Origin: a virus
Direction: 5' to 3' (one strand)
DNA length: 64,000 bases
Virus record (IMG/VR): IMGVR_UViG_3300003322_000571
Coordinates: 286,090 to 350,089 of that record
Below the pieces are notes generated by a model, which was given only the letters and a program-made list of their open reading frames with translations, made no database searches and was not told the DNA's origin. Each line of letters opens with the position of its first letter. The stretch's first letter is position 1. A program made the position numbers and the translations under genes. Positions 18,401 through 58,202 of the stretch are shown here, in pieces.

Positions 18401-18450
18401 CTGGAGAAATAGCAGTGATCTTTACCCGTATACCCAGGGACCGGAAATGA

Positions 18451-18474
18451 AGGAAGGCGCCGAAGCGCCTTCCT
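18451..18474 (-). terminator. Intrinsic terminator of the tmRNA gene
   Basis: AGGAAGGCGC/GCGCCTTCCT stem with a CGAA-type tetraloop, followed on the minus strand by a short T-rich run. Confidence 0.75.
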
Positions 18475-18805
18475 ATGATACTGTTGTTATCGGGGTATCA
18501 TGCCCTCAGTCAAGCATTAAGCTGCGAGACGGAAGTTACCTTCATTTGCATTTAGGTTGTTTTCTTGAGTTACGGTCTTCGCCACCGGCATGCGCCATCC
18601 ATCTCAGTAACTCTGTCGAAACCAGGGCAGGCCCATGACAGAAGATTCAACGCTACGTTACTTTTCGAGGGCCTAGGTTCCCTTTAACCGTTTCACGCAG
18701 CACTAAACCTTCTGTGGTGGACCTGGCGGGAATCGAACCCGCGTCCAAAATCCTTCAACATCAGTCGAATTACATGCTTCATCTGCTTGCGCAGATACGT
18801 CTATT
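18475..18805 (-). ncRNA. ssrA: Circularly permuted (two-piece) tmRNA gene
   Basis: On the minus strand the 3' acceptor piece comes first (18715 to ~18800): T-arm GCGGG-TTCGATT-CCCGC, acceptor strand CAGGTCC, A, CCA at 18715-18717. An ~80-base intervening segment follows, closed by a 7-bp repeat (ACAGAAG 18638-18644, CTTCTGT 18709-18715). The coding piece starts at 18634 with GGGCCTG, which pairs with CAGGTCC including a G3-U70 wobble, the alanine identity element. Next are the tmRNA signatures TGGTTTCGAC and GGCGCATGCC, the tag frame, and a 7-bp hairpin (18475-18501). It rescues stalled ribosomes with host SmpB. A TTGATA/TAAATA promoter-like pair lies near 18800-18830. Confidence 0.9.
18517..18549 (-). 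other. tmRNA tag-peptide frame (ANEGNFRLAA)
   Basis: Resume codon GCA at 18547-18549, then AAT GAA GGT AAC TTC CGT CTC GCA GCT and TAA. The encoded tag ANEGNFRLAA ends in LAA, the usual degradation signal read by ClpXP-type proteases. Confidence 0.88.
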
Positions 18806-18827
18806 TAAGCATAGAACCCTAAAACTA

Positions 18828-42892: not shown

Positions 42893-43345
42893 ATGGACTA
42901 TTTGGTTGGTATTGCAATGGTTGTGATGTTGTTCATCGCATGTATTCACATCGTTGCACAACTCAGCTTGGAAGACAAAGCACAGCGATGGAATCCCGTT
43001 GCAGCCCGTTACCGCAGTGCTGGAATGCAATTGATTTGTTTCACAGCACTCGCGTTTGTTCTGTTCGGTAGCCGGATGTTCCTTCGTCCCGACGTGTCGA
43101 TTGCGTACAGTGACATTGAAATCGGCGTGTACAAAAATGTCACCCAAAATGACAAGTTGCAAGACGTAATCGAAACGAAGACAATCGCAGGTTGTCAGGT
43201 CACTTTGAAAAAGACGTATCCTTTGTTCGTCACCATTGGATCGGATACCAAAGAGATCAAGTACAAGCTCCCTTGTGATCGACTTGCACCTGAGATGAAG
43301 ACTGACATCGCAAGTGTCGTCAGCTATCTCAAAGAAGAGAAGTAA
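42893..43345 (+). CDS. Membrane protein (150 aa)
   Basis: Two transmembrane helices (GIAMVVMLFIACIHIVAQ, LICFTALAFVLFG), then a soluble beta-rich domain. A promoter-like TTTACA-17-TAACAT precedes it. Unknown. Confidence 0.65.
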   Translation: MDYLVGIAMVVMLFIACIHIVAQLSLEDKAQRWNPVAARYRSAGMQLICFTALAFVLFGSRMFLRPDVSIAYSDIEIGVYKNVTQNDKLQDVIETKTIAGCQVTLKKTYPLFVTIGSDTKEIKYKLPCDRLAPEMKTDIASVVSYLKEEK

Positions 43346-43351
43346 TGATTG

Positions 43352-43381
43352 TTGACATGTTGAGGGTAACGCATATATAGT
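43352..43381 (+). promoter_or_regulatory. Strong promoter of the large ncRNA unit
   Basis: TTGACA, 18-base spacer containing GGTAAC, TATAGT. Shares GGTAAC and CATATATA(G/C)T with the promoter at 55420-55449. Confidence 0.75.
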
Positions 43382-43483
43382 TCTCTCAATGTTGAACAAA
43401 GCGCTCTTAATTGAGCGCTGCTTTCAAATTAAGTTGGTCAATTTTACCCTTGTTGACTTAATTTGAAAGCAGTGATAAAGTTC

Positions 43484-43571
43484 ACTCATCGATTCAAACA
43501 ACGAAGTTAATTCAGCGATGTTTGATCAAAGCCAAGCTGTGAAGGGACTGGTTCGATTCCAGGTGTGAGTA
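43484..43571 (+). other. tRNA-like element at the 5' part of the large RNA
   Basis: T-arm CTGG-TTCGATT-CCAG with flanking strands ACTCAT and GTGAGT that pair as an acceptor stem, but the D- and anticodon-arm region cannot be folded canonically. Confidence 0.4.
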
Positions 43572-44425
43572 ACAGAAGCTCTATCAAGGACGGAGCGTCA
43601 TTGTTTGGTACGTTCTTTACAATTCAAGATTTGGGGCATAGCCCGGATAACTCCAGTGATGGAGCCAAAGCCTTAATGCTACATTATGGCGCCAGAAATG
43701 GTCAATCTATGCAAGCTCAGTTCTCTCCAGAAATGGAGGCTTCGTCGGGTTATCTGGCGGAGATAACTAGGAAATGAGTGTTGTGGAAAGAACACGAGGT
43801 CAAGTGCCACGCAAGTGGGAACACAACTGAGTGGAAAGCTGGGTGGTACCGGCTTCACAACAAACCAAACTCATCAGTAGGTAAGAACAAGAGTAGTGTC
43901 AATGTCCAAGCCGGCAAGCGAGGGCTATGATGCAGTTTGAGAGGTTAGTGGTGTGTGAAACATCATTGGTCTTGAAAAACAGTTGAGTAAGCGGCAGCTG
44001 AAAGACATGGAGGTGTGTTGTATTTTGGTGGTCAAAAGCCATCGAAGCAACTGGACGCACACATCTTCGTAGCGATTTCCGGTTAAAAACCGGGTAATTC
44101 ACGGTTTATGAATATCTTTAACGCAAAAGTTGCGTCCGGTGTTGTGTGAAAGTGGCTTAATTCTGTGGCAGCAATGTAACACAGACGTCTGAAGCTCGCA
44201 AGGCAGAGGATGTTGAAAGTGAGTCGCACGTTTGGCTAGGCATAGTCGAGCGGTAGACAAACTTCGAATAGCACAACGCGACGAGGTAACCGCCAACCTC
44301 TAAATAAGGCAGTCATGCAAGGTACTCTCATGAGAGAGTGGATAAGTGTAGAACCAATGGTGTAGCAGCCAAAGGATAATGACACAAAAGTCTTGTACCA
44401 ACCGATGTAATCTCAGTCGTTTGAC

Positions 44426-44464
44426 CTAACCGAACAGCATTCTGTGTTGTTCGGTTAGTCTTTT
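44426..44464 (+). terminator. Intrinsic terminator of the large ncRNA unit
   Basis: CTAACCGAACA/TGTTCGGTTAG, 11-bp stem, followed by TCTTTT. Confidence 0.85.
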
Positions 44465-44476
44465 ACAGATACGTAT

Positions 44477-44767
44477 ATGAACTTCGACAACATCCGAAAG
44501 GCGTGGCGTCGAGCAAAAAGCTTCAAGCTGGTCGGCAGTGTACAATTCACACCGTACAATCCCGTTGGAGCTGAAATCGCAGCAGCTAACTACTGCTTGT
44601 TGATCGACGCTGAAGGCGATCTTGTTGATGACTTAGTCCTCTTCGATAGTTGGGCTCAAAGCATTAACCGTGCATGTGATGCACGAATGATCGTCGATAG
44701 TCCAGACATTCAACACTCTCTTCGGTGCTTTGCTTCAAGGCTCTGGGTTGATCCTGAACGTCTTTGA
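44477..44767 (+). CDS. Hypothetical protein (96 aa)
   Basis: Sits alone between two non-coding RNA blocks. Basic start (IRKAWRRAKSFKLVG) and acidic middle (DAEGDLVDDLVLFD). No clear ribosome-binding site; could start later. Unknown. Confidence 0.5.
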   Translation: MNFDNIRKAWRRAKSFKLVGSVQFTPYNPVGAEIAAANYCLLIDAEGDLVDDLVLFDSWAQSINRACDARMIVDSPDIQHSLRCFASRLWVDPERL

Positions 44768-44814
44768 CTAAATAGAAAGTCGGGAGACCCACTACCCTAA
44801 GTGTGGAACTTTAA

Positions 44815-44943
44815 ATACAAATGTGGTGAGCAATCACCGCCGAATGCAAACCCAACCACGTAAGTGGATGAAAGCTTCGATTACCGTAGTTAAATGGGAC
44901 TACGGAGTAGGTCTGGTTCGGAATCGCTGCCAGACATTTGTAT
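44815..44943 (+). ncRNA. Five-stem structured RNA next to tRNA-Met
   Basis: Closing stem ATACAAATG/CATTTGTAT (9 bp). Inside, in order: GGTGA-GCAA-TCACC and CCAC-GTAA-GTGG (both GNRA tetraloops), CCGTAGT/ACTACGG (7 bp) and GTCTGG/CCAGAC (6 bp). No reading frame. Six bases upstream of tRNA-Met. The CCAC-GNAA-GTGG hairpin also occurs in the large RNA. Not a known class that I recognise. Confidence 0.65.
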
Positions 44944-44948
44944 ACGAT

Positions 44949-45019
44949 TGCGGGCGAGTGTGATGGAAGCACGTAAGGCTCATAACCTTAAGGACCTGTT
45001 CGATTCAGTGGCCACGCAT
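44949..45019 (+). tRNA. tRNA-Met(CAT), imperfect arms
   Basis: Anticodon arm TAAGG-CTCATAA-CCTTA is perfect and the D-stem GTG/CAC present. The acceptor TGCGGGC pairs with GCC-CGCA only if one A is bulged, and the T-stem is reduced to CTG/CAG. Isoleucine-type (lysidine) reading of CAT is possible. Confidence 0.65.
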
Positions 45020-45114
45020 CAAATAACATGACTTCGAGTGTTGGCATAGTGCGAATGCTCATATAACCGACTTTAATTTGCGTCCTTAGTCGGTGGGCGG
45101 TAAAAGTAGGAATC

Positions 45115-46011
45115 ATGATGTATAGCAACAAGCTAGCCGTCGCTGTGAAAGCGAGCGGCAAGGTTCTCCGTGAATTCGGAGATAAAGTGTACGTGCCATT
45201 CGGCAGTGAATACACAATCCTGATCAAGAACCTCAACAGTGTTCGTGTCCAAGTTCGTGTGACGATCGACGGAACTGACGCTACTGAAGGAACTTCTCTT
45301 GTCATCGGGGCAAATCAAGAACTAGAACTGCAACGGTTCATTAAGAACGGTAACCTCCGTGAGGGCAACCGATTCAAGTTCATCGAACGCACTTCCAAGA
45401 TTGAAAATGGACCGCGCGGTGCGAAGGTTGACGATGGTTTGATTCGTATTGAGTACGAATTTGAAAAGGTCGTTCAGCCGATCGAACCTCTAGTTTTCAA
45501 AGAAAAATGGATCAAGACGTACGAAGTTGAACGTCCCAATCCGTGGAAGACGTACCCTGACGTATGGTGCAGCACAAATAATCAGATCATCGGTTCGATC
45601 GCAAATGGCGAAGGGATGCTGATGAATACGTCGGTGACGAATGCGAATTATCTTGCTGTTGCACAAAACACTGCATCCGTTCAACCTGCGTCGTCGATCA
45701 CGATCACGACGACTGCACCGGTAAAAACCAAAGGTGCTCTCCGTTGTGCTACAAAACCACAATTGAATGAAACAGGTATTACCGTTGCTGGCAGTAAGAG
45801 CGAACAGCAATTCAGAACAGTTTCATCATTCCCTGTGGAGTCAACAACGCATTCACTTGTTATCCACTTGCTTGGTGAGACAGAGACAGGAAAGTCGGTA
45901 AGGGAAGCTGTAACCGTTAAGGCAAAGCCGAAATGCACGACTTGCGGACACTTGAACAAAGCTACTGCTAAGTTCTGTACAGAATGTGGAACCGCACTAG
46001 AGATCATCTAA
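45115..46011 (+). CDS. Protein with C-terminal zinc ribbon (298 aa)
   Basis: Beta-rich N-terminal half (YVPFGSEYTILIKNLNSVRVQVRVTI), a Thr/Ser-rich middle, and a zinc ribbon at the end (CTTCGHLNKATAKFCTECG). Similar ribbon-tailed proteins occur in large phages as virion or regulatory proteins. AGGAATC precedes ATG-ATG. Unknown function. Confidence 0.65.
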   Translation: MMYSNKLAVAVKASGKVLREFGDKVYVPFGSEYTILIKNLNSVRVQVRVTIDGTDATEGTSLVIGANQELELQRFIKNGNLREGNRFKFIERTSKIENGPRGAKVDDGLIRIEYEFEKVVQPIEPLVFKEKWIKTYEVERPNPWKTYPDVWCSTNNQIIGSIANGEGMLMNTSVTNANYLAVAQNTASVQPASSITITTTAPVKTKGALRCATKPQLNETGITVAGSKSEQQFRTVSSFPVESTTHSLVIHLLGETETGKSVREAVTVKAKPKCTTCGHLNKATAKFCTECGTALEII

Positions 46012-46778: not shown

Positions 46779-46855
46779 GCTCTCTTAGCTCAATTGGTTA
46801 GAGCGGCGGTCTCTAAAACCGACGGCTACGGGTTCGAATCCCGTAGAGGGCACCA
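46779..46855 (+). tRNA. tRNA with anticodon CTA (amber-reading)
   Basis: Very canonical cloverleaf: acceptor GCTCTCT/AGAGGGC, D-arm GCTC-AATTGGTTA-GAGC, anticodon loop CTCTAAA (U33, CTA, A37), T-arm ACGGG-TTCGAAT-CCCGT, encoded CCA. CTA reads UAG. Charging identity unknown. It lies just upstream of the VWA gene, outside the main array. Confidence 0.9.
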
Positions 46856-56653: not shown

Positions 56654-56828
56654 GTGTTTAAGACTGTCGCACGCCAAAAGGCACAGTGGGTTAAGTCTTA
56701 CTTCATGTCTTTACTTGTTGGCGCAAGTATAACATGTTGTCCATTAGTACAGTGGTAGTACGTCGCCTATAACGGCGAAGACGCGGGTTCGATTCCCGTA
56801 TGGAATTTTTGACGACAGCCTTAAACAC
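56654..56828 (+). ncRNA. Long-stem RNA enclosing a tRNA-like gene
   Basis: GTGTTTAAG-A-CTGTCG (56654-56669) pairs with CGACAG-C-CTTAAACAC (56813-56828), 15 pairs with one mismatch. The loop holds a CGCCAA/TTGGCG hairpin region and the tRNA-like element at 56739-56807. No reading frame. Confidence 0.6.
56739..56808 (+). tRNA. tRNA-like gene with six-base anticodon loop
   Basis: D-arm GTAC-AGTGGTA-GTAC and T-arm GCGGG-TTCGATT-CCCGT are canonical. The anticodon stem TCGCC/GGCGA encloses only TATAAC, and two acceptor pairs are missing. Isotype unassigned. Confidence 0.55.
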
Positions 56829-58124: not shown

Positions 58125-58196
58125 GGGGAGGTCGTTTAGCGTTCAAGACACTGGCCACTAAAGCCAGCGACGATGGTTCGAATCCATCCCTCCCCA
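58125..58196 (+). tRNA. tRNA with anticodon position CTA (A33)
   Basis: Acceptor GGGGAGG/CCTCCCC, D-stem GTTT/AGAC, anticodon arm CTGGC-CACTAAA-GCCAG, T-arm GATGG-TTCGAAT-CCATC. Loop numbering places CTA at 34-36 with A at 33 instead of U. Possible amber reader. Confidence 0.65.
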
Positions 58197-58202
58197 CAAA
58201 TT

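Follow-up and report, generated by a model that had tools for sequence, protein, structure and literature searches.

Introduction

GOLLD RNAs are among the largest known RNA-only cages. The cryo-EM structure of GOLLD env-38 showed a 14-mer, a hollow cage built only of RNA that encloses the linker, and the 5' domain of this RNA is 420 nt long (PMC12286853). GOLLD linkers were already known to contain tRNAs in some cases, and ROOL RNA also forms cages (PMC12286853). According to reports cited in PMC12286853, GOLLD increases in the course of lysis, and ribosomes were found to bind it in pull-down experiments. In rrn operons, the boxA element has the gamma-proteobacterial consensus GYTCTTTAANA (PMC5725501).

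Here, we analysed a stretch of 64,000 nucleotides (the window) from the 350,089-base record of an uncultured jumbo phage, and a locus in it is a divergent yet clear GOLLD member from promoter to terminator. The locus shares with env-38 (RF02032) a complete 3' domain above the gathering score, a variable linker, and a location in a phage genome with a tRNA cluster, which was found at 55.8–63.8 kb of the window. The 5' domains of the two RNAs agree in length (about 400–430 nt) and are likened by length alone. Unlike env-38, the window carries no tRNA in its linker, and it has an extra ~190-nt leader that contains both a tRNA-like element and a site resembling boxA. The GOLLDs of Caulobacter phages BL57/phiCbK and Phaeobacter phage MD18 belong to the same 5'-domain family by profile. 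Their linkers hold a tRNA (Gly, Arg), and by the strict rule they lack a boxA, whereas the window has a boxA-like site and no linker tRNA. ROOL RNAs and the window RNA are both large phage RNAs near tRNAs, but the window gave no ROOL match. As in the rrn leader with boxA (PMC5725501), a boxA-like site precedes a long structured untranslated RNA and a tRNA-like sequence lies within the same unit; however, the window RNA is a phage RNA with no rRNA, and its boxA function is putative.

Identification of the Locus as a GOLLD RNA

As shown in Table 1, the 3' part of the locus matched the Rfam GOLLD model over its entire length (model positions 1–416) in a cmscan search, with 207.3 bits and an E value of 4e-57 against a gathering score of 150. 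RF02032 covers the GOLLD 3' domain only. No second GOLLD was present in the entire virus record. ROOL gave no match in a cmscan of the whole window at the gathering score, and none at E ≤ 1 in 43300–45200; ROOL and the other Rfam classes, which had no match at 43352–44465, were rejected for this stretch. Near-identity relatives of the locus were not found in the phage collection, and a plasmid search returned no GOLLD. When 17 relatives and named phages were searched with Rfam, all 17 exceeded the GOLLD gathering score.

Table 1. Features of the GOLLD locus, in window coordinates
Feature	Position	Strand	Basis
Sigma70-like promoter P1, TTGACA-18-TATAGT	43352..43381	+	11/12
17-bp perfect inverted repeat, P1 leader	43418..43472	+	sequence; arms 43418-43434 with 43456-43472
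Possible second promoter P2, TTGACT-17-TAAAGT, extended -10	43453..43481	+	9/12
Degenerate tRNA-like element	43484..43570	+	T-arm at 43548-43562; acceptor-like pairs between 43484-43489 and 43565-43570
BoxA-like (antitermination) site CGTTCTTTACAA, immediately ahead of the 5' domain	43611..43622	+	consensus match
GOLLD 5' domain	43628..44007	+	profile matches in 27 loci; covariation
GOLLD 3' domain (RF02032), full model	44008..44419	+	cmscan, covariation
Variable linker within the Rfam-modelled part, no tRNA	44070..44128	+	alignments; ARAGORN
Intrinsic-terminator-like hairpin	44426..44458	+	11-bp outer stem, 15 pairs in all

Of the 98 RF02032 pairs mapped on the locus, 38 were identical, 9 carried a one-sided change, 39 had changes on both sides that preserved the pairing, 6 were non-canonical and 6 were gapped. 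The independent Rfam structure was then placed on 26 GOLLD loci that had been aligned by sequence only. Two-sided changes were observed in 77 of 92 pairs, and the covariation score was 0.499, compared with 0.187 after shuffling (none of 500 shuffles reached the observed scores) and at most 0.144 with slid partners. Likewise, 77.5% of the cells at paired positions were paired, compared with 57.5% after shuffling and 38–44% with partners slid.

The locus was therefore assigned to GOLLD, and not to ROOL or a new RNA class, on the full-model Rfam match, the compensatory pairs and the 5' domain, which is shared with relatives and covaries. A preliminary description had proposed a large ornate RNA without a gene at 43352–44465, belonging either to the GOLLD/ROOL group, as a divergent member, or to a new class, and had pointed to an Infernal search and to covariation in aligned homologues. 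The ornate RNA and its membership in GOLLD were borne out by both analyses and by the 5' domain, whereas the ROOL and new-class options were not.

Transcription Signals and Coding Potential

The locus lies between two ORFs. The longest ORF within it has 70 aa and a GTG start, and the two longest sense-strand ORFs had no Pfam or PHROG family match; a protein-coding reading was rejected on both grounds. Many hairpins were predicted across 43352–44465, and the leader (43385–43600) folded better than 200 of 200 shuffles, with a z score of -3.8. No homologue of 43388–43580 was found among the GOLLD loci fetched.

The near-consensus promoter, the internal hairpins, the 11-bp terminator and the absence of a credible gene in the preliminary description all held on reanalysis. 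Its 16-bp perfect 5' stem proved to be a 17-bp inverted repeat, and the T tail of the terminator, TCTTTTACAG, is weak. P2 had been overlooked; by eye it is similar to the promoter that precedes GOLLD in another locus (L347), and its -35 is overlapped by the inverted repeat. The predicted RNA would start from P1 (~1,070 nt) or P2 (~970 nt) and end at the terminator, at 44458. It would consist of a leader with the degenerate tRNA-like element and the boxA-like site, a 5' domain of ~400 nt and a 412-nt 3' domain.

The 5'-Domain Subtype and tRNAs in the Linker and Leader

GOLLD loci were drawn from viral contigs, bacterial genome contigs and named phages; nhmmer gave 81 distinct loci, a count made before the final named phages joined. 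A 5'-domain profile was seeded from the window and four relatives and iterated, so that later-round members depend on iteration; most first-pass matches were already strong, with E values from 1e-33 to 1e-11. The 5' domain, ~430 nt long, was common to 27 loci, the window included, and the 5' region of the other 54 was not recognised by this window-based profile. Several cultured phages were matched as well, among them phiCbK, MD18, Phosso and DSS3P8. RNAalifold predicted 22 pairs in the 5' domain, 18 of them with two-sided changes, and a covariation score of 0.618 compared with 0.212 after shuffling, a weaker test than that of the 3' domain because the structure came from the same alignment.

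After ARAGORN analysis, complete tRNAs were found in the linker of 15 of the 27 loci with the window-type 5' domain and in none of the 54 lacking it. Fourteen of the 15 lay at +64 to +146 from the start of the 3' domain; the start had been placed off in the remaining locus (L029), which hence fell outside this range. The isotypes varied and included Lys, Arg, Gly, Met, Ile, Asn, Thr, Tyr and others. The present comparison adds that the linker tRNA is confined to one 5'-domain subtype and changes isotype at a fixed slot.

In the window, the tRNA-like element is found in the leader and not in the linker, where relatives hold real tRNAs. Its T-arm, CTGGTTCGATTCCAG, is perfect and is 95% identical over 20 nt to the T-arm of the phage's own tRNA-Phe, and its acceptor-like pairing comprises 6 bp. 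A T-arm and acceptor embedded in the RNA had been noticed before, and both are present; however, the element is degenerate, has a T-arm without a complete cloverleaf, and was not called as a tRNA by ARAGORN or Rfam, so a real tRNA in the leader was rejected. Elsewhere in the phage genome, the search for repeats of the element gave short T-arm matches only. The element lies at -524 to -438, and a real tRNA was found at about this place in five other loci (L173, L230, L352, L356 and L382). With moderate confidence, we consider it a tRNA remnant.

The boxA-like Element

The boxA-like site of the window matched the degenerate consensus used at 11 of 12 positions and GYTCTTTAANA at 10 of 11, with one mismatch either way. 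Several GOLLD loci carry GTTCTTTRAMA, the rrn boxA pattern, directly upstream of the 5' domain. To count such sites, a match of at least 11 of 12 positions to a 12-position degenerate consensus was required at -620 to -330, the consensus having been set after the first examples, and loci were grouped into clusters at 85% identity. Sites were found in 13 of 30 clusters, compared with 0.44 expected from dinucleotide shuffles (maximum 3 in 200). The controls gave 1 of 30 on the reverse strand, 2 of 28 further upstream and 0 of 27 downstream, and the overall rate of matches to the rule was 0.0785 per kb over 6.57 Mb.

In a fresh test on named phages fetched later, the rule was met in 1 of ~9 independent phages (L392, a 634-kb uncultured phage), with ~0.2 expected, indicating that the boxA-like element is not a general GOLLD feature. 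By eye, outside any rule set beforehand, AGTTGTTTGACAAGTGAAT (the GTTGTTTGACAA form) was seen at about the matching place in an actinobacterial GOLLD (L389, from the class of Schaalia canis), and TTGTTCTTACACAGTTGAAT in that of Mycobacterium phage Papyrus.

Instead of a boxA, the GTTCTTT element could be a conserved part of GOLLD that serves structure or goes with the promoter, a reading that we find doubtful but well worth weighing. Its flanks are partly conserved too in a large cluster of 46 related loci, and many GOLLDs do not have the element. Against this reading, the element is found ahead of 5' domains of two kinds, its flanks being unrelated between them; conservation is confined to the columns of the boxA core, and the flanks differ. 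By eye, the actinobacterial GOLLD also has its form of the element in the same place. Comparison with relatives suggests a boxA-like signal, such RNAs often, not universally, being transcribed behind an rRNA-style antitermination signal. A literature search that left the original GOLLD papers outside its scope found no paper naming boxA with GOLLD or ROOL, and the element ahead of the GOLLD 5' domain may be a novel feature.

Genomic Neighbourhood and Related Phages

Downstream of the locus, a second structured stretch without an ORF was found at 44776–45075, upstream of the ORF at 45115–46011 (fold z score -3.4). It has a closing stem, AAAGTCGG/CCGACTTT, and an alternative CCGACT/AGTCGG hairpin (45068/45089). 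Within it, a weak tRNA-Met(CAU)-like element at 44953–45014 (26.2 bits, below threshold) is related to a tRNA-Met that lies immediately 3' of GOLLD in another locus (L107), with an E value of 5e-4. We read this stretch as a possible leader RNA or the possible relic of a tRNA.

A permuted (two-piece) tmRNA of the beta-proteobacterial type, with the tag ANEGNFRLAA, is encoded on the minus strand at 18448–18817; permuted or alpha/beta tmRNAs near GOLLD were also present in BL57, phiCbK, XacN1, MD18, DSS3P8 and L173. Two tRNAs with anticodon CTA (ARAGORN 'Pyl') at 46779–46855 and 58125–58197 are possible amber suppressors, and a tRNA call with an unusual four-base anticodon (ataa) at 56738–56807 may reflect either a genuinely odd tRNA or an artefact of ARAGORN.

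Among other phages, nhmmer found a GOLLD 3' domain (E 3e-20), unannotated in the record, in Mycobacterium phage Papyrus (L402, ~1836–2264) and in Weiss13, with matching records for several other phages of M. smegmatis mc2 155. Experimentally accessible GOLLD phages therefore exist. The ~800-nt ncRNA of phage ICP1, its most abundant transcript, has been compared with GOLLD and ROOL (PMC7567579). We rejected it as a GOLLD, since 98–1108 of the fetched locus L390 (Vibrio phage ICP1, 80097–81107) had no Rfam GOLLD or ROOL match; it may represent a further class of large phage RNA.

Discussion

Family membership, both conserved domains, and promoter-like and terminator-like signals are directly supported, and transcription itself is predicted. 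A linker without a tRNA, a degenerate tRNA-like leader, and 6 non-canonical and 6 gapped Rfam pairs would fit a decayed, non-functional GOLLD remnant. We consider this very improbable: the helices have been maintained through many compensatory changes, the promoter and terminator are intact, and the score of 207 bits is above that of many relatives, such as BL57 (169.7). A new class of large ornate RNA with only a chance likeness to GOLLD is scarcely credible, for although 43388–43580 has no homologue in the fetched loci and the 5' region of ~54 GOLLD loci lies outside the profile, it is refuted by the full-length RF02032 match above the gathering score, the 39 two-sided compensatory pairs, the covariation over 26 loci and a 5' domain common to other Rfam-validated GOLLDs.

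Taken as a whole, the locus is best explained, with high confidence, as a GOLLD RNA gene that is complete and belongs to a jumbo phage rich in tRNAs, with an inferred cage and boxA role. By analogy with env-38 (PMC12286853), many copies of the RNA would come together as a hollow cage made of RNA only, the linker lying inside. The boxA-like site would recruit host NusB/S10, rendering RNA polymerase resistant to Rho while it transcribes a long RNA that is not translated, much as in rrn operons, and would perhaps also aid RNA folding; such antitermination is proposed only for GOLLDs with boxA. From the gene neighbourhood and the published ribosome pull-downs, we might guess that the translation machinery (tRNAs, tmRNA or ribosomes) is the most likely target of the cage in late infection.

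More broadly, many phage GOLLD RNAs may be rrn-like units, in which an adjacent boxA recruits host Nus factors to complete and fold a long untranslated cage RNA, and one subtype may lodge a tRNA of changing isotype in a fixed slot of the cage-forming RNA. We offer this tentatively, at a little under an even chance.

The locus is a known kind of RNA, a clear GOLLD member from an uncultured jumbo phage, and it defines a 5'-domain subtype that is also present in phages of common laboratory hosts, namely phiCbK of Caulobacter and phages related to it. Two features merit follow-up, the association with boxA and the tRNA slot specific to this subtype. A tRNA slot at a fixed position and a leader with a boxA-like site provide two testable links from GOLLD to the translation and ribosomal-RNA machinery of the host.
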